This document shows, piece after piece, positions 2,912-52,211 of a DNA stretch of 64,000 nucleotides. Source of the DNA: Heloderma charlesbogerti. Taxonomy: Eukaryota > Chordata > Lepidosauria > Squamata > Helodermatidae. A program made the translations under genes and the position numbers. The stretch is taken from the NCBI GenBank assembly GCA_026122225.1, contig JANEZZ010001624.1, forward strand, positions 310,001-374,000. Reading direction: 5' to 3'. Position 1 is the stretch's first letter; every line of letters begins with the position of its first letter. The notes under the pieces were generated by a model, which made no database searches, was not told where the DNA came from, and saw only the letters and a program-made list of their open reading frames with translations.

Positions 2912-5014
2912 ATCCCCTTCATGGATCACTGCCTTGTTGTGGCGAAGGGGCTTGCGTAACTCAGTGAAGCCATAAGCTATGCCGTGCAGGGCCACCCAAG
3001 ACAGACAGGTCATGGCGGAGAGTTCGGACAAAATGTGGTCCACTGGAGAAGGAAATGGCAACCCACTCCAGTATTCTTGCCAAGAAAGAAAACCCCATGG
3101 AACGTATCACAAGGCTAAAAGAGATGACGCCGGAAGATGAGCCACTCAGGTCGGAAGGTGTCCAATATACTACTGGGGAAGAGCAGAGGGTATTTCCAAG
3201 TAGCGCCAGAAAGAGTGAAGCGGCTGGGCGAAAGCCGAAAGGACACTCAGTTGTGAATGTGTGTGGTGGTGAAAAGAAAATCCGATGCTGTAAAGGACAA
3301 TATTGTTTAGGAACCTGGAATGTCAGATCAATGAATCAAGGTAAGCTGGAGGTGGTCAAACATGAGATGGCAAGATTGAACATCGACATCTTGGGAATCA
3401 GTGAACTAAAATGGACAAGCATGGGTGAATTTAATTCAGGTGACCATCATATCTACTCCTGTGGGCAAGAATCCCTTAGAAGAAATGGAGTAGCACTCAT
3501 AGTCAACAAAAGGGTGGGAAAAGCAGTACTGGGGTACAATCTTAAAAACGATAGAATGATCTCAGTACGAATCCAAGGCAAACCATTCCACATCACAGTA
3601 ATTCAAGTCTATGCCCCAACCACTGATGCCGAAGAAGCTGAGGTTGATCGGTTCTAGGAAGACCTACAACACCTTTTAGAACTAACACCAAAAAAAGATG
3701 TCCTCTTCATCATAGGGGATTGGAATGCTAAAGTAGGAAGTCAAGAAATCACCGGGATAACAGGCAGGCATGGCCTTGGTGTACAAAATGAAGCAGGACA
3801 AAGGCTAATAGAGTTTTGCCAAGACAACACGCTGATCATAGCAAACACGCTTTTCCAACAGCACAGGAGGCGACTCTACACATGGACATCACCAGATAGT
3901 CAATATCGAAATCAGATTGATTATGTCCTTTGCAGCCAAAGATGGAGAAGCTCTATACAGTCAGTAAAAACAAGACCTGGAGCTGACTGTGGCTCAGATC
4001 ATGAGCTGCTTCTTGCAAAAGTTCGGCTTAAATTGTATAACGTAGGGAAAACCACTAAACCATTCAGGTATGACCTAAATCATATCCCTTATGAATATAC
4101 AGTGGAGGTGAGGAATAGATTTAAGGGATTAGACCTGATAGACAGAGTGCCTGAGGAACTATGGACGGAGGTCCGTAACATTGTTCAGGAGGCAGCAACT
4201 CAATCCATCCCAAAGGAAAAGAAATGCAAGAAAGCAAAGTGGCTGTCTGATGAGGCTTTACAAGTAGCTGAGGAAAGAAGGGAAGCAAAAAGCAAGGGAG
4301 AAAGGGGAAGATATATCCAACTGAATGCAGAGTTCCAGAGAATAGCAAGGAGAGACAAGAAGGCCTTCTTAAATGAACAATGCAAAGAAATCGAGGAAAA
4401 CAATAGAATGGTGACAGATTTTATTTTCTTGGGCTCCAAGATCACCGCAGACGGTGACTGTAGCCATGAAATTAAAAGACGCTTGCTCCTTGGGAGGAAA
4501 GCTATGGCAAACCTAGACAGCATAGTAAGAAGCAGAGACATCACCTTGCCGACAAAGGTCCGTCTAATCAAAGCTATGGTTTTCCCAGTAGTAACGTATG
4601 GCTGTGAGAGCTGGACTATAAGGAAGGCTGAGCGCCGAAGAATCGATGCTTTCGAACTGTGGTGCTGGAGAAGACTCTTACGAGTCCCCTGGACTACAAG
4701 GAGGTCAAATCAGTCAATCCTAAAGGAAATCAACCCTGTCTGCTCATTGGAAGGACGGATACTGAAACTGAAGCTCAAGTATTTTGGCCACCTAATGCGA
4801 AGAGAAAACTCCCTGGAAAAGACGCTGATGCTGGGAAAGATTGAAGGCAAATGGAGAAGGGGACGGCAGAGGATGAGATGGCTAGATAGCATCACCGATG
4901 CAATGAAGATGAATTTGAGCACACTCCGGGAGAGAGCGGAGGACAAGAAGGCCTGGCGTGCTATGGTCCATGGGTCACGAAGAGTCGGACACAACTTAAC
5001 AACTGAATAACAAC
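2912..5014 (+). mobile_element. RTE-BovB LINE copy 1, internally deleted
   Basis: The element is bounded by a perfect 9-bp target-site duplication, AATTAAACC, at 2903-2911 and 5015-5023. It starts with the BovB 5' segment (catggatcactgccttgttg) and ends with the short AACAACAAC-type tail. Compared with the full-length copy at 19339-22548 it lacks 1,119 bp, exactly 373 codons, at the junction near position 4410. The lost part is most of the reverse transcriptase, including the YADD box. The insertion lies directly upstream of an older repeat (5024-5312). Confidence 0.93.
3055..5010 (+). pseudogene. BovB ORF2 remnant: endonuclease joined to C-terminal region
   Basis: The reading frame encodes an APE-like endonuclease (GTWNVRSMN, then SELKW with the metal-binding Glu, GDWNAKVG, IDYVLCSQRW and the SDH motif), followed by the linker region. 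At EENNRM the frame jumps directly to VTDFIFLG of the post-RT region and continues through YGCESWTIRKAERRR and WCWRRLL to a stop at 5010. One in-frame TAG at 3655-3657 replaces the Asn codon seen at the same place in copy 2. Otherwise the frame stays open across the deletion. It cannot make a reverse transcriptase. Confidence 0.9.
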
Positions 5015-5023
5015 AATTAAACC

Positions 5024-19328: not shown

Positions 19329-19338
19329 CATTTCCATG

Positions 19339-22300
19339 TTGTTGTTCAGTCATTCAGTCGTGTCTGACTCTTCGTGACCCCATGGACCATAGCATGCCAG
19401 GCCTTCCTGTCCTGCGCTCTCTCCCGGAGTGTGCTCAAGTTCATATTCATTGCATCGGTGATGCTATCTAGCCATCTCATCCTCTGTCGTCCCCTTCTCC
19501 TTTTGCCTTCAGTCTTTCCCAGCATCAGGGTCTTTTCCAGTGAGTTTTCTCTCCACATTAGGTGGCCAAAATATTTGAGCTTCAGTATCTGTCCTTCCAA
19601 TGAGCACTCAGGGTTGATTTCCTTTAGGATTGACTGATTTGACCTCCTTGCAGTCCAGGGGACTCGTAAGAGTCTTCTCCAGCACCACAGGTCGAAAGCA
19701 TCAATTCTTCGGCGCTCAGCCTTCCTTATAGTCCAGCTCTCACAGCCATACATTACTACTGGGAAAACCATAGCTTTGATTAGAAGGGCCTTTGTCGGCA
19801 AGGTGATGTCTCTGCTTCTTACTATGCTGTCTAGGTTTGCCATAGCTTTCCTCCCAAGGAGCAAGCGTCTTTTAATTTCATGGCTACAGTCACCGTCTGC
19901 GGTGATCTTGGAGCCCAAGAAAGTAAAATCTGTCACTGCTTCCATTTCTTCCCCTTCTATATGCCAGGAAATGATGGGGCCAGATGCCATGATCTTCGTT
20001 TTTTGAATGTTGAGTTTCAAACCAGCTTTTGCACTCTCCTCTTTCACCCTCAACAAGAGGCTCTTGAGATCCTCTTCGCTTTCTGCCATTAGGGTGGTAT
20101 TGTCTGCATATCTGAGGTTGTTGATAATTCTCCTGGCAATCTTAATTCTGACCTGTGATTCATCCAAACCGGCGTTTCTCATGATGTACTCTGCATATAA
20201 GTTAAATAAACAGGGTGACAATATGCAGCCTTGTCGTATTCCTTTCCCAATTTTGAACCACTTGGTTGTTCCATGTCTGGTTCTTACTGTTGCTTCTTGA
20301 CCCTCGTACAGGTTTCTCAGGAGACAGGTAAGGTGGTCTGGTACTCCCATCACTTTAAGAATTTGCCACAGTTTGTTGTGATCCACACAATCAAAGGCTT
20401 TAGCATAGGCAATGAAGCAGAAATAGACGTTTTTCTGGAATTCTCTTGCTTTCTCCATGATCCAGCGAACATTGGCGATTTGATCACTAGTTCCTCTGCC
20501 TCTTCGAAACCCCGCTTGCACTTCCGGTAGTTCTTGGTTCGCATTCTGCTGAAGCCTAGCTTGTAGGATTTGGAGCATCACCTTGCTGACATGTGAAATG
20601 AGCACAATTGTGCGGTAGTTTGAACACTCTTTGGCGTTGCCCTTCTTTAGAACTGGAATGTAAACTGACCTTTTCCAGTCTTGTGGCCACTGTTGAGTGT
20701 TCCAGATTTGTTGGCATATTGAATGCAGCACTTTAACAGCATCATCTTTTAGGATTTTAAATAGCTCAGCTGGAATACTGTCATCTCCGCTAGCTTTGTT
20801 GTTACTAATGCTTCCTAAGGCCCACTTGACTTCAATCTTGAGGATGTCCGGCTCAAGTTCAGTGACCGCACTATCATGGCTATCAGGGACATTCAGATCT
20901 TTCCTGTATAGTTCTTCTGTGTATTCTTGCCACCTCTTCTTAATCTCATCTGCTTCTGTTAGGTCCCTGCCTTCTTTGTCCTTTATCATGCCCATCTTTG
21001 CACAAAACGTTCCCTTGAGATCTCCAATTTTCTTGAAGAGATCTCTAGTCTTTCCCATTCTGTTGTTTTCCTCCATTTCTTTGCATTGTTCATTTAAGAA
21101 GGCCTTCTTGTCTCTCCTTGCTATTCTCTGGAACTCTGCATTCAGTTGGATATATCTTTCCCTTTCTCCCTTGCTTTTCGCTTCCTTTCTTTCTTCAGCT
21201 ACTTGTAAAGCCTCATCAGACAGCCACTTGGCTTTCTTGCATTTCCTTTTCTTTGGGATGGATTTCATTGCTGCCTCCTGAACAATGTTACGGACCTCCG
21301 CCCATAGTTCCTCAGGCACTCTGTCTATCAGGTCTAATCCCTGAAATCTATTCCTCACCTCCACTGTATATTCATCAGGGATATGATTGAGGTCATACCT
21401 GAATGGTTTAGTGGTTTTCCCTATGTTCTTCAATTTAAGCTGAAATCTTGCAACAAGAAGCTCATGATCTGAGCCACAGTCAGCTCCAGGTCTTGTTTTT
21501 ACTGACTGTATAGAGCTTCTCCATCTTTGGCTGCAAAGGACATAATCAATCTGATTTCGATATTGACCATCTGGTGATGTCCATGTGTAGAGTCGTCTCT
21601 TGTGCTGTTGGAAAAGAGTGTCTGCTATGATCAGCGTGTTCTCTTGGCAAAACTCTATTAGCTTTTGTCCTGCTTCATTTTGTACACCAAATCCATGCCT
21701 GCCTGTTATCCCGGTGATTTCTTGACTTCCTACTTTAGCATTCCAATCCCCTATGATGAAGAGGACATCTTTTTTTGGTGTTAGTTCTAGAAGGTGTTGT
21801 AGGTCTTCATTGAACCGATCAACCTCAGCTTCTTCGGCATCAGTGGTTGGGGCATAGACCTGAATTACTGTGATGTTGAATGGTTTGCCTTGGATTCGTA
21901 CTGAGATCATTCTATCGTTTTTAAGATTGTACCCCAGTACTGCTTTTCCCACCCTTTTATTGACTATGAGTGCTACTCCATTTCTTCTAAGGGATTCTTG
22001 CCCACAGGAGTAGATATGATGGTCACCTGAATTAAATTCACCCATGCCTGTCCATTTTAGTTTGCTGATTCCCAAGATGTCGATGTTCAATCTTGCCATC
22101 TCATGTTTGACCACCTCCAGCTTACCTTGATTCATTGATCTGACATTCCACGTTCCTAAACAATATTGTTCTTTACAGCATCGGATTTTCTTTTCACCAC
22201 CAGACACATCCACAGCTGAGTGTCCTTTCGGCTTTGGCCCAGCCGCTTCACTCTTTCTGGCGCTACTTGGAAATTCCCTCTGCTCTTCCCCAGTCGTTTA

Positions 22301-37976: not shown

Positions 37977-37987
37977 TAATAGTGGAT

Positions 37988-38942
37988 TGTTGTTGTTCAG
38001 TTGTTAAGTCGTGTCCAACCCTTCGTGACCCCATGGACCACAGCACGCCAGGCCTTCCTGTCCTCCGCTCTCTCCCGGAGTGTGCTCAAGTTCATATTCA
38101 TTGCATCGGTGATGCTATCTAGCCATCTCATCCTCTGCTGTCCCCTTCTCCTTTTGCCTTCAATCTTTCCCAGCATCAGGGTCTTTTCCAGTGACTTTTC
38201 TCTTCGCATTAGGTGGCCAAAATGTTTGAGCTTCAGTTTCAGTACCTGTCCTTCCAATGAGCACTCAGGGTTGATTTCCTTTAGGATGGACTGATTTGAC
38301 CTCCTTGCAGTCCAGGGGACTCGTAAGAGTCTTCTCCAGCACCACAGTTCGAAAGCATCGATTCTTCGACGCTCAGCCTTCCTTATAGTCCAGCTCTCAC
38401 AGCCATACGTTGCTACTGGGAAAACCATACTTTTGATTAGACGGGCCTTTGTCGGCAAGGTGATGTCTCTGCTTCTTACTATGCTGTCTAGGATTGCCAT
38501 AGCTTTCCTCCCAAAGAGCAAGCATCTTTTAATTTCATGGCTACAGTCACTGTCTGTGGTAATCTTGGAGCCCAAGGAAGTAAAATCTGTCACTGTTGCC
38601 ATTTCTTCCCCTTCTATATGCCAGGAAGTGATGGGGCCAGATGCCATGATTTGAGTTTTTTTAATGTTGAGTTTCAAACCAGCTTTTGCACTCTCCACTT
38701 TCACCCTCCACAAGAGGCTCTTTAGATCCTCTTCGCTTTCTGCCATTAGGGTGGTATCATCTGCATATCTGAGGTTGTTGATAATTCTCCTGGCAATCTT
38801 AATTCCGACCTGTGATTCATCCAACCCGGCGTTTCTCATGATGTACTCTGCATATAAGTTAAATAAGCAGGGCGACAATATGCAGCCTTGTCGTACTCCT
38901 TTCCCAATTTTGAACCAATCGGTTGTTCCATGTCCAGTTTTT
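37988..38942 (-). mobile_element. RTE-BovB LINE copy 3, 5'-truncated
   Basis: Bounded by a perfect 11-bp target-site duplication TAATAGTGGAT (37977-37987 and 38943-38953). It keeps the last 950 bp of BovB and breaks off within the RT domain, just before the GKGVRQGC region. The TSD and the truncation are the normal result of target-primed reverse transcription. Confidence 0.95.
37997..38878 (-). pseudogene. BovB ORF2 C-terminal remnant
   Basis: The frame keeps the catalytic YADDTTLMAES box, then LGSKIT, YGCESWTIRKAERRR and WCWRRLLRVPWTARRSN, and ends LNN-stop. It is uninterrupted, and the frame continues upstream of 38878 to the truncation point. It lacks the endonuclease and the first half of the RT. 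It is the best reference in the window for the RT residues lost in copy 2. Confidence 0.9.
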
Positions 38943-44281: not shown

Positions 44282-44877
44282 TGTTGTATGAGCGGAACAC
44301 GCCCTTTGTTCGTTGTCTAGCCGGACAATGGATCATACTAGACACTGGTAAGATTCCTGGATCAAAAAGCACTTTATTGCATGGCCAGCAAGGCACTCTG
44401 TCAGCAAAGGGGCAGAGAGCCCTGAATGTTCGGTAGGGTGGGCTTTTATACAGCGAAATACGTCACAGGGAAGAACTCTAGCCATGCTCTAGTAGCCGCA
44501 TTACTTGGAGGCATTCACACAGTCTGTTATCTGGAACAGGGGCTGAATGTTCCTTCCCTGGACAGGATGGACGCTTGCCAGCTACTGACACTCAGTTACT
44601 GCACAAAGTACAATGTTATCAGCTTGCGGCCTGGAGAGGAACCTATCCTCCCTTACAATTCCCAGGGAAACTGCTGACAGGCTGTAATTTGCTTCTCACA
44701 GTGGCAACACACGGGTGGGCTAGCATACAAACATGGAGCAACTCTGGTTCACAATAAACACAAGCACAAGCATCTGTTGAACACCTTATGCAGATGTCAA
44801 CGGCACTCTTATAACTGCGTTGCTACTCTGGGGTACACACAACACATTAGGGGTGAGGTTAAAGGATTCTTTCCACA
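44282..44877 (-). repeat. ERV 3' LTR
   Basis: 596 bp, TG...CA type (minus strand TGTGGAAAG to CATACAACA). It carries a TATAAAAG box (44443-44450) and AATAAA (44373-44378) in promoter-to-poly-A order on the minus strand. By eye it differs from the other LTR by about 15 substitutions and one 7-bp indel. Confidence 0.93.
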
Positions 44878-44976: not shown

Positions 44977-45348
44977 TCAGGGGGGTTCATTTACAGGCAT
45001 GGCTGCATCCTGGCCTGTAAGAAGTTGAGAGCCCTTATATAAAGGAGGAACAAGGTTTATACAACATTGCACAAAGCATGGAATAGCAATTATTAACACA
45101 AGAATAACAACAATTGCCATAACTACTTTTCTTATCCAAGCAGTAGAGGGAAGCCAAGAACTTAGCCAATCTCTAAAGGTATCCTTACCTAAGTGTGAAA
45201 TATCTTTAGAGATTTTATTTATATTATTTAGGTGGTGCAGGATGTCAGGTTGGTTATCTGTTATTTGAGTACAACACTGATTCCCAATTAAAGCACACAC
45301 ACCTCCTTGCGAGGCTAAGAGGCAGTCTAGAGCTAGCCTATTTTGCAA
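44977..45348 (-). pseudogene. ERV env transmembrane subunit remnant
   Basis: The frame begins at a QNRLALD motif (the conserved immunosuppressive-like segment of gamma-type envelopes) and has CALIGNQCC, a CX6CC motif (plus about 45271-45297), then a heptad-like stretch, a strongly hydrophobic membrane span (about 45060-45130) and a short cytoplasmic tail. The upstream fusion-peptide part is not in an open frame here. CX6CC is typical of envelopes whose surface subunit is disulfide-linked. The gene is broken and separated from the surface-subunit frame by stops. Confidence 0.85.
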
Positions 45349-45645
45349 GGCTACTAGACGTCCTTCGGCTAGTTCAGTGGAGAGGGGTCTGGCAATTGCA
45401 ACACTTTCATTAATAAACTGAGTGAGGGATTCAGATAGTGCACAGAGGTCGGCATAATTCTTTCAACCCCATATGTAGGTATGAGGCCATGACCAAACCC
45501 AGCCCAACTGCATTAGTTGTGTTGGCGCGGCCCTGGGGATGGTCTGTGACAATGCACATACCTGGCACAGCGCAAGCCCTGGGGCACATTGCCATGGAGC
45601 ACTCAAAGATGGTAGCACAAGTGTTGCTGTGTGCCCACATAACCA

Positions 45646-46146
45646 CTAAACACCCGCTGGCAAGCCCAAAGTGGAAATGGTGTCATTCTGTGTAAAGGGA
45701 TAAAAGAGATTATGGGAAACAGTTGCCCAGCTGCTAACCACATCTGCCACAACTTCTGTAGAAAATTCGGTTTCTACAGTCCAGTTTGTCCCATCAAACT
45801 GAAGTGGTATGTCGCAACTATGGTGTTCTATGTTAGCCTGGTTAGTGGGATGGTAGGTAACACAAAAGGGGGCAATAACGTCACCGTTTATGGACAGTCT
45901 GGTCTGACCATTTATGTCAAGAGATGTCAAGTTTAATTGTTGTGCTTGTGCTAACTGTGAAATGGTCACTGGGATACCCACTAGAGGGACTCCACTATGG
46001 CTATGAGTGGGGATGTGAGCACAGATGTAACAAGGGTGGCTGATCTTGGCAGCTACAACTCTCAATAAATGAAAATATGTGTTTGGACCCCAACTCCCAG
46101 GGATCGGCTCAGGCGTTGTGGTGGCTGCCAGTTTTTTTAAACACAT
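45646..46146 (-). pseudogene. ERV env surface subunit remnant
   Basis: The frame includes the cysteine motif PCYICAHIP followed by GVPLVGIPV, and N-glycosylation-type sites (NLTS, NWTV, NDTI). This resembles the middle of gamma-like surface subunits. It overlaps the preceding frame (46109-46528) by a shift at an A7 run (about 46134-46140). The two were probably one frame before an indel. No function is expected in the present state. Confidence 0.65.
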
Positions 46147-46528
46147 CTGGATTACCTTTATCTACAGGTGGGGAAGTAGTCTCTGGGGGAGCCCATTTCT
46201 TATTTAATTCTTCTATGGCTTCCTGCACCCAGGAATACACTGGTTTGGTGCAAATAACCCTACTTTTCTTTGTAATTAATAACACGGCTTTCTCCCCCAC
46301 TACAGAAAATATACTGTGTTTGTGGTGACGATACTCATAACTTTGCAGTATGCACAAAGGAATAGGTTTTGCTGTAAAAGCAAGCCATTGTACCTTACAG
46401 TTATTAACTGCAAGCGGCTGACCTCTGACTACAAGTGTTAGGGTACAGCAAAGAAAAATGCTCAAGACAAGTGCTGTAATTTCAGCTTGAGTCCACCTAG
46501 GTGCGTTGCCTGCCATGACACGGCACAC
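46109..46528 (-). pseudogene. ERV env N-terminal frame with chemokine-like domain
   Basis: 139 codons. Residues 17-36 form a hydrophobic signal peptide. Residues about 44-112 (plus 46193-46399) follow the vertebrate chemokine pattern: a Cys at 44, KPIP and LQSYEY in the first part, AVLLITKK as the third beta strand, then VICTKP (Cys 93) and a C-terminal helix WVQEAIEEL. CC chemokines have the same order (IP...L..SY..., AV.F.TK, .C..P...WVQ..I..L). The third chemokine Cys seems absent and about six residues are extra between SYEY and AVLL. A Pro/Thr-rich linker follows. The frame sits between pol and the surface-subunit remnant. Family assignment is by eye, not by search. Confidence 0.65.
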
Positions 46529-47690
46529 TTTTCGTCTGCTTCTGGCACACCCTTGTCGCGGTCAGGTGGCTTAGCGTCATTCCCGCGACGTCTGTTGCCA
46601 CCTGCTTCGAGTCCCCCTGTTTCCTGGTCAGGGGAAGTGCGGCTTGATCCTGTGATGTCAGCTTCTTCTGGCCCTGACTCAGCAGGGCTGTCTGTTGTAG
46701 CTCCTCTGGCGATAGTGCAGTGGGAGTAATGGATCCAGGAATCTCGACCTGCTACTTTGGGAGCGGTGTGTGAGACTAGAAGAACTTGGTACAGGCCTTT
46801 CCACTGTTCCTTGATGCCGTCTGCTGTCCAGGCCCTCACATCTTGTCCTAGTCCGGGGAAGGTGGGGGGGAGGGGGTTGGCTACCCCGTTGTCATCTGCT
46901 TCTCGTCCTAGTCCGAAGAAGGTGGAGGTTTTGGCTGCTTCGTTGTCATCTGGTGGAATGGCACGCTTGCATCGGGTATGATGGATCCAGGCTTCCTTTT
47001 CTTGGTGTCTTTTCACATAGACCTGATCTCTAGCTTCTAGGCTGTGGCGCTGCTCATGATTGGATGCTTCTTCAAGCTGTGAATGAAAGTTCTTAACACA
47101 TTTCATTAATTTCTTACAATAATCTATGGTCAATGAATGAGCGTAGGTAGGGTCCTCATATTCGGGAGGTGAGGAGAAAAATTTAATTGGCCTGCTGGTG
47201 ATAATTTCGTATCAGAAGTGACGCTTTCTGTTTGGGGTGGCCCTCATAGACATCAGGGCTAATGGCAAAATAGTTACCTCATTAGAGTTCAATTCAGTAC
47301 ATAACCTTGACACATTTTGCTCTTCCGTATCCCATTCTCTACATTTTCCAAACCGGGGGCAGGGAGGTGATATGGGCAGTGAAAGTGTTGGGAAATGTTC
47401 ATTACCCTGCACACCTGTTCCTAGTAGGAGTTACAAAGTTCAAAAATTTCTCAGTGACTGTGGTAGCATCTGCCCTCCTGCAAGGGGATGCCTTTACCCT
47501 CATCCAGAAAAAATAGGCACACAATTTCTAACACATATTCAAACCTACGACACTTGGACATTTGAATAAAATCCATTTGCAGATGTAAAAACGGACCCTC
47601 TGAGAGACCTCTACATCCCTGCGCAACCCTTACAGGTGACGCAACAGAGACAGATGGCCTGACAGATGGCCTATCCTTCCTTGCCGGCAT
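46462..47690 (-). pseudogene. ERV pol: integrase remnant
   Basis: Going 5' to 3' on the minus strand: HLQMDFIQ with the first catalytic Asp of DDE (plus 47571-47573), an NRxxK-like stretch, then TILPLALMSMRATPN and YEIITSRPI, and a C-terminal domain with DQVYVKRHQ, WKGLYQVLL and KVAGRDSWIHY. The frame is broken several times (for example near 47340-47400). The C-terminal frame 46462-47133 holds an extra block of about 70 residues with a repeated GLG unit (46842-46952). Its 3' end overlaps the start of the env-position frame, as in gammaretroviruses. Confidence 0.8.
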
Positions 47691-49091: not shown

Positions 49092-49822
49092 TGGCCTCTT
49101 GTTGAGGGTGAAAGTGGAGAGTGCAAAAGCTGGTTTGAAACTCAACATTAAAAAAACGAAGATCATGGCATCTGGCCCCATCATTTCCTGGCATATAGAA
49201 GGGGAAGAAATGGAAGCAGTGACAGATTTTATTTTCTTGGGCTCCAAGATCACTGCAGACGGTTACTGTAGCCATGAAATTAAAAGACGCTTGCTCCTTG
49301 GGAGGAAAGCTATGGCAAACCTCGACAGCATAGTAAGAAGCAGAGACATCACCTTGCCGACAAAGGCCCGTCTAATCAAAGCTATGGTTTTCCCTGTAGC
49401 AACGTATGGCTGTGAAAGCTGGACTATAAGGAAGGCTGAGCGCCGAAGAATCGATGCTTTCAAACTGTGGTGCTGGAGAAGACTCTTACAAGTCCCCTGG
49501 ACTGCAAGGAGGTCAAATCAGTCCATCCTAAAGGAAATCAACCCTGAGTGCTCATTGGAAGGACAGATACTGAAGCTGAAGCTCAAATATTTTGGCCACC
49601 TAATGCGGAGAGAAAACTCCCTGGAAAAGACCCTGATGCTGGGAAAGATTGAAGGCAAAAGGAGAAGGGGACAGCAGAGGATGAGATGGCTAGATAGCAT
49701 CACCGATGCAATGAATATCAACTTGAGCACACTCCGGGAGAGAGCGCAGGACAGGAAGGCCAGGCGTGCTATGGTCCATGGGGCACGAAGAGTCGGACAT
49801 GACTGAACGACTGAACAACAAC
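49092..49822 (+). mobile_element. RTE-BovB LINE copy 4, nested in the ERV
   Basis: 5'-truncated, about 730 bp, opposite in orientation to the ERV. The frame 49099-49806 has LGSKITADG, YGCESWTIRKAERRR and LWCWRRLL, close to copies 1-3. It ends with the ACAACAACAA-type tail. It interrupts the protease region, whose frame is recognisable on both sides. A 4-bp ATGG repeat at both edges may be the TSD. Confidence 0.9.
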
Positions 49823-49899
49823 AAATGGTCTGTTTCAAAGGGCCCTACAGACACCATGACTTCTTTACTAAGGGGTTGATAATTTGGGATCCCATCAAT

Positions 49900-51608: not shown

Positions 51609-52211
51609 TGTTGTATGAGCAGAACACACCCTTTGTTCATTGTCTAGCCAGACAATGGATCACACTAGACACGGGTAAGACTCCTGGATCAAAAAGCCCT
51701 TTATTGCATGGCCAGCAAAGCACTCTGTCAGCAAAGGGGCAGAGAGCCCCGAATGTTCGGTAGGGTGGGCTTTTATACAGCGAAATACGTCACAGGGAAG
51801 AACTCTAGCCATGCTCTAGTAGCCGCATTACTTGGAGGCATTCACACAGTCTGTTATCTGGAACAGGGGCTGAATGTTCCTTCCCTGGACAGGATGGACG
51901 CTTGCCAGCTACTGACACTCAGTTACTGCACAAAGTACAATGCTATCAGCTCGCAGCCTGGAGAGGAACCTATCCTCCCTTACAATTCCCAGGGAAACTG
52001 CTGACAGGCTGTAATTTGCTTCTCACAGACTACGGTGGCAACACACGGGTGGGCTAGCGTACCAACATGGAGCAACTCTGGTTCACAATAAACACAAGCA
52101 CAAGCATCTGTTGAACACCTTATGCAGATGTCAACGGCACTCTTATAACTGCGTTGCTACTCTGGGGTACACACAACACATTAGGGGTGAGGTTAAAGGA
52201 TTCTTTCCACA
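51609..52211 (-). repeat. ERV 5' LTR
   Basis: 603 bp, with TATAAAAG at 51770-51777 and AATAAA at 51700-51705 (minus strand). It has a 7-bp insertion relative to the 3' LTR near 52027-52035. Confidence 0.93.

Follow-up and report, generated by a model that had tools for sequence, protein, structure and literature searches.

Why should the env gene of an endogenous retrovirus (ERV) in the squamate Heloderma charlesbogerti begin with a segment that resembles a host chemokine? The question arises from a stretch of 64,000 nucleotides (contig JANEZZ010001624.1 of assembly GCA_026122225.1, positions 310,001 to 374,000 of the forward strand; hereafter the window), in which an initial annotation, made without database searches, had read the start of the envelope (Env) gene of a provirus as a captured chemokine. 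Sequence comparison establishes that the segment is homologous to chemokines, that its closest counterpart among host genes is CX3CL1 (fractalkine), that it lacks the donor's intron, that it shares a reading frame with Env in two copies, and that it was inserted relative to sister Envs, evolved under constraint and is confined to a single group of loci. Beyond this, a retrovirus lineage may have placed a captured host chemokine on top of, or in place of, its receptor-binding region, making CX3CR1 an entry or homing receptor, with the domain under selection and present at at least 33 germline loci; we consider the odds of this full account to be even.

The window provirus has relatives in the same genome. 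When all six frames of the 2.3-Gb genome were searched, 53 matches emerged, 51 of them in 37 ERV loci and two in host genes. At 33 of the 37 ERV loci the matches span 20 or more domain residues, and at the other four they cover only the leader and the first 9 to 14 domain residues. Sequence was retrieved for 30 loci, 29 of them distinct (L025 and L026 are the same locus); within 1.5 kb of the chemokine, the Env surface subunit (SU) lies downstream at 27 of these 29 and the end of integrase lies upstream, also at 27. The better-kept copies possess C-x3-C together with a third and a fourth cysteine, spaced as in chemokines. In a count over 29 rows (L030 omitted as too short, L025 and L026 entered as two rows for one locus), 17 of the 25 rows spanning the motif retained CX3C, and 9 of 20 retained all four cysteines. 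The subfamily, which the initial annotation had left open, is CX3C. The chemokine profile PF00048, run at E<=1, matched every copy of a ten-row alignment consisting of the window copy and nine copies picked for few stops (best E=2.5e-13). L003, L007 and L016 scored 37.1, 31.9 and 26.6 bits against a cut-off of 21.3. A profile built from this alignment found CX3CL1 first among solved structures in PDB (6.9e-11), followed by CCL13 (2.3e-10) and an XCL1 ancestor (6.2e-10). The comparison with related ERVs that had been suggested as a check, made here within one genome, therefore favours a chemokine domain over ordinary SU sequence.

The window provirus is composed of the following features, listed in its own 5' to 3' direction:

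51609..52211, minus strand: 5' long terminal repeat (LTR), paired with the other LTR by alignment
46462..47211, minus strand: frame ending pol, integrase C-terminal domain (PF18697 MLVIN_C, E=7.4e-9)
46421..46516, minus strand: env start codon and signal peptide (hydrophobic stretch, by eye)
46193..46420, minus strand: CX3CL1-like chemokine domain (PF00048, 23.7 bits; alignment with 28 other rows)
46109..46192, minus strand: Pro/Thr-rich linker, where the frame of the window copy closes with a stop
45646..46110, minus strand: SU core with N-terminal CXXC (CYIC), in a different frame of the window copy (matching region in turtle and snake Envs; SU search)
44977..45462, minus strand: transmembrane subunit (TM) with CX6CC and membrane anchor, both by eye (PF00429 TLV_coat, E=1.1e-9)
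44282..44877, minus strand: 3' LTR, paired with the other LTR by alignment

Aligned over 603 columns, the two LTRs agree at 581 and differ by 15 substitutions and 7 gap columns; a target-site duplication was looked for at this provirus and none was evident. The 3' end of the integrase frame overlaps the start of env and the TM frame lies downstream, which bears out the env position claimed for the chemokine frame. Downstream of that frame, the SU piece and the TM frame each lie in other frames, as in a decayed copy. The family as a whole displays the features of a gamma-type retroviral Env: a TLV_coat TM with CX6CC, a CXXC in SU, an N-terminal leader and an env start that overlaps the end of pol. 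No receptor-binding domain (RBD) like that of murine leukaemia virus was present ahead of the proline-rich region; the segment before the linker is the chemokine domain, which is RBD-like by position only.

Env relatives without the domain indicate that it is an insertion and not an ancestral part. When L016 was used as a protein query, nine Env relatives were returned, none of which matched PF00048. In four turtle Envs (P0007, P0008, P0010 and P0012) a hydrophobic leader, recognized by eye, runs directly into the CXXC core, and in Rhineura P0014 the core begins about 20 residues after the leader (also by eye). The Naja naja models P0006 and P0009 start without a leader, and their N-termini, perhaps including an N-terminal domain, may therefore be missing from the annotation. 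A search with TM gave four turtle fragments; no match came from scanning viral contigs with TM or from searching a phage collection with L007. Within the H. charlesbogerti genome, an SU search (150 of 189 candidates scored) gave 58 loci. The 37 SU loci with a family-search match within 3 kb all have at least 65% SU identity. Among the 42 loci at or above 65%, 33 carry at least 20 domain residues, four carry the leader and the first 9 to 14 residues, and five carry none; in four of these five the match begins no earlier than SU residue 32, and the fifth has LTR sequence directly upstream (86% over 350 bases). At the 16 loci of 59% identity or less there was no chemokine-domain match, the upstream DNA having been inspected for three of them, so that a decayed domain could escape notice in the other 13. 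In L086, a sister ERV, the leader is joined to the core with no domain between, and the leader of L085 is nearly the same by eye. At L087 (C1153), where no chemokine was detected, the leader is 46% identical over 26 residues and has a stop inside. The domain is thus, as far as these loci record it, an insertion confined to one group.

Two further observations concern the SU loci. In a sister ERV 44% identical in SU (L087 and L084, C1153:22550-24000), a similar Env leader is followed by another, unassigned segment before the CXXC core, for which profile searches gave only weak, sub-threshold matches; segments may be exchanged at the N-terminus of SU. The SU matches C1958:192283 and C1958:211649 have near-equal scores, are separated by 19 kb and have opposite orientations, which may reflect an inverted duplication.

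We propose that a gammaretrovirus-like virus whose Env had an N-terminal CXXC took the chemokine head of a host CX3CL1 from a spliced mRNA and that the head came to lie downstream of the Env signal peptide and ahead of the SU core. Once the signal peptide was removed, the protein would present a free chemokine N-terminus, followed by the chemokine fold, the Pro/Thr-rich linker, SU and TM. The C-terminal helix of the head would be tied to SU by the linker, repeating the fractalkine topology of a head held on a stalk off the membrane. Chemokines engage their receptors through their N-terminus, and CX3CR1 is borne by monocytes, macrophages, T cells and natural killer cells. The head would have bound host CX3CR1 and thereby governed viral attachment, entry or tropism, with fusion left to the old SU and TM. 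An N-terminal Env head that targeted CX3CR1 is, in our judgement, the probable function, and it is favoured because of the fractalkine-like topology, the N-terminal position of RBDs in gamma-type Envs and the precedents of respiratory syncytial virus (RSV) and cytomegalovirus (CMV). This suggests the use of an immune-cell receptor to find or enter target cells; the identity of the receptor, its use in entry and any signalling are what we infer from these likenesses. In gamma-type Envs the RBDs sit in the N-terminal half of SU, according to the part of the review cited here (PMC9967133).

A less probable account, although one that deserves some weight, is that the head was mainly an immune modulator, that is, an Env-borne or shed mimic of CX3CL1 that activated, blocked or attracted CX3CR1 cells while the SU core bound the entry receptor. 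Given that the turtle Envs and sister L086 lack the domain, one would expect the SU core itself to have a receptor function, and MCK2, the chemokine of murine CMV, has separable entry and chemokine roles as described in the cited part of PMC10732436. However, the head lies at the Env N-terminus, the site of gamma-type RBDs in the cited part of PMC9967133, and this position suits attachment at least equally well.

In such an Env the chemokine would be a physical part of the virion entry protein. In L007 a single open frame of 275 codons holds the whole chemokine domain (IL8) and the CXXC core (CYVC), and in L016, where the first half of the domain is interrupted, a single open frame of 445 codons holds the second half (part of IL8), the SU core and TM (TLV_coat). 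SU has no leader of its own and would therefore not be delivered to the membrane unless fused. Because of these two long frames and the missing SU leader, we read chemokine and SU as probably one fused product. It is unlikely that the chemokine was instead encoded ahead of SU as an independent, secreted accessory protein, with the stop of the window copy being genuine. A frame shift or stop does precede SU in the window copy and in many copies, and at 11 of 27 loci the final piece of the chemokine is in frame with the initial piece of SU, which is near chance; frame agreement was for that reason rejected as evidence. Nevertheless, the joint frames of L016 and L007 weaken the idea of a separate protein, as do the absence of an SU leader and the linker itself, whose length differences across copies lie to a large extent in short A or C runs (by eye).

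The capture of a host chemokine at the start of env, as proposed by the initial annotation, finds support in the profile matches in all ten aligned copies, a donor type present in the same genome, the lack of an intron, the open frames that join chemokine and SU, and the sister ERVs free of the domain. Two CX3CL1-like host genes, L031 and L032, lie 54 kb apart on one contig (C1969). L031 (PF00048 E=3.2e-5) has one exon with C-x3-C and a later exon whose 431-codon frame leads from the last part of the chemokine through a Ser/Thr/Pro-rich stretch to a hydrophobic anchor; by this layout it is a predicted CX3CL1 gene. Its intron between exons 2 and 3 has ordinary splice signals (by eye), and the ERV reads seamlessly across that junction; the absence of the donor intron therefore points to capture via spliced RNA. 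As would be expected of intronless copies, ERVs took the top seven places among the 35 matches of a PF00048 scan of the genome. In an exon-by-exon comparison limited to the host loci fetched, CX3CL1 was the best host match for all six exon-3 and all four usable exon-2 ERV queries, the margin being under one bit for exon 3 of L022 (41.6 against CX3CL1, 40.8 against another host chemokine exon). The ERV and host CX3CL1 have the spacing of the third cysteine in common. In a tree computed from 17 aligned rows (71 columns), with the window copy excluded and five other chemokines for comparison, nine ERV rows formed one group with host and human CX3CL1 (support 89/85). The donor CX3CL1 may have come from another species or an older time. 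Exon 1 of host CX3CL1 was searched for and not found with confidence. The exon-3 frame of L032 is short (an open frame of 106 codons), and this gene may be a pseudogene; another chemokine-type exon, L034, lies near L031 and L032.

That the donor was another chemokine, of the CC or XC type, with convergent CX3C spacing, is very improbable. The XCL1 ancestor is the top PDB match of the window copy and is slightly nearer than host CX3CL1 in two of nine copies (L004, 44 against 42%; L009, 42 against 41%), human CCL13 and CCL7 are equal to or nearer than human CX3CL1 for most of the nine ERV rows, and the margin of L022 is slim. Against this stand the CX3C motif in 17 of 25 rows, the best match of both exons to host CX3CL1, the common spacing of the third cysteine and the tree group.

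The window copy itself is a worn example. The 139-codon minus-strand frame described at 46109-46528 is present, with its Met at codon 5 (46516) and a hydrophobic leader after it, and contains KPIP, LQSYEY, AVLLITKK, VICTKP and WVQEAIEEL in the order reported. The PF00048 search proposed for it gave E=5.4e-5, a value that applies to one frame which a reader had selected among many, and 23.7 bits against the cut-off of 21.3. Against PDB sequences the frame had 85 matches at E<=1, headed by the XCL1 ancestor (1.3e-6) and then CX3CL1 and CCL7, and each of the best 60 of the 85 was a chemokine or a chemokine-receptor fusion. The same frame gave no match in a protein search, and an NCBIfam search with three proteins gave none. 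Loss of the third cysteine, as the initial annotation had it, is seen in the alignment, but the loss is not limited to that residue, since the position of the second cysteine is occupied by Trp. Likewise, the insertion near the third cysteine is real but comprises seven residues instead of about six, and it is unique to the window copy among the 29 alignment rows. By sequence, the resemblance of the window frame to chemokines is more than chance and the copy is a decayed member of a chemokine-bearing ERV family. Although the window copy on its own stands 2.4 bits over the cut-off, a chance or compositional likeness within ordinary SU deserves practically no credence, as the family evidence refutes it in our view: all ten copies match, both exons match host CX3CL1 and the sisters lack the segment.

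Estimates of omega indicate that the chemokine domain evolved under constraint. In 10 copies, with the window copy excluded, the chemokine had an omega of 0.53 (0.32-0.79) and the linker one of 1.24 (0.65-2.87); in 12 copies the value was 0.39 (0.30-0.50) for the SU core. The intervals come from a bootstrap over codons that takes no account of shared descent. Decay after integration moves omega towards 1, and the constraint in the living virus was therefore probably stronger. LTR pairs were sought in eight copies and found in four, with differences, gaps uncounted, at 26 of 525 alignment columns in L010, 22 of 476 in L006, 28 of 551 in L005 and 23 of 418 in L004; the window copy, whose LTRs differ by 15 substitutions over 603 columns, is younger than the four others that were dated.

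Several results weigh against the proposed account. Lacking two of the four cysteines, the window copy alone would not qualify as a four-cysteine CX3C chemokine. Its single-sequence structure model is poor (mean predicted local distance difference test score 46.9), and Foldseek with that model gave a best E of 0.06, with template-modelling scores of about 0.2 among the best 50 of 420 matches, all of them chemokine-titled. To these must be added the near-chance agreement of chemokine and SU frames, an identity of the ERVs to host CX3CL1 of just 38-53%, the two copies nearer to the XCL1 ancestor, a tree branch whose support lies under its program's mark for strong support, and the overlap of the linker's omega interval with that of the chemokine.

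A LINE-like (long interspersed nuclear element) fragment, which we take to be BovB, lies within the provirus at window positions 49094-49823, with copies 94-95% identical at 4411-5016, 19337-20061 and 37987-38718; a Pfam search with it gave no match.

No ERV Env with a chemokine domain was found among the top-listed open-access literature (titles and abstract openings, with subscription journals mostly outside and fractalkine not queried). New receptor specificity of an Env is usually pictured as drift or as recombination between viral RBDs. The family described here would be a natural example of a host ligand domain joined to Env, in which the donor gene type, the insertion point and the chemokine-free sisters are visible in one genome. 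The capture reading predicts a specific receptor, and receptor switching by ligand capture is therefore testable. Engineered chemokine-Env chimeras for retroviral targeting embody a similar idea, and no such paper was among the literature matches listed; they are laboratory-made, whereas the ERV fusion is natural and, if true, would be the natural counterpart of engineered ligand-Env fusions. According to section 5.1 of the review PMC9967133, the N-terminal domain of SU is a place where novel folds are likely to have evolved, and the same section names SYNC2 as an N-terminal-CXXC Env.

Gamma-type Envs of this kind, such as turtle P0007, P0008, P0010 and P0012, share with the ERV the CXXC core, the CX6CC TM and the TLV_coat match, but the four turtle proteins run from leader to core and have no chemokine domain. 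In CMV, MCK2 and UL128 are also chemokines that serve in a virus entry complex, as described in the cited parts of PMC3723581 and PMC10732436. They are, however, separate herpesvirus gene products of the CC type on gH (gH/gL), whereas the ERV chemokine is of the CX3C type and would form one polypeptide with the fusion protein, in a retrovirus. RSV G bears a CX3C motif and is not known to have a chemokine fold or to derive from a captured gene, whereas the ERV Env has a whole homologous chemokine domain. The likeness between the two lies in a CX3C motif in an attachment protein, with CX3CR1 as the receptor in the case of RSV G according to the cited part of PMC4676609. With CX3CL1 itself the ERV protein shares the CX3C motif, the four-cysteine spacing, exons 2 and 3 in order and a chemokine head that precedes a stalk and membrane anchor; it differs in being intronless, in having a short linker in place of the mucin stalk, in being joined to retroviral SU and TM, and in retaining 38-53% identity.
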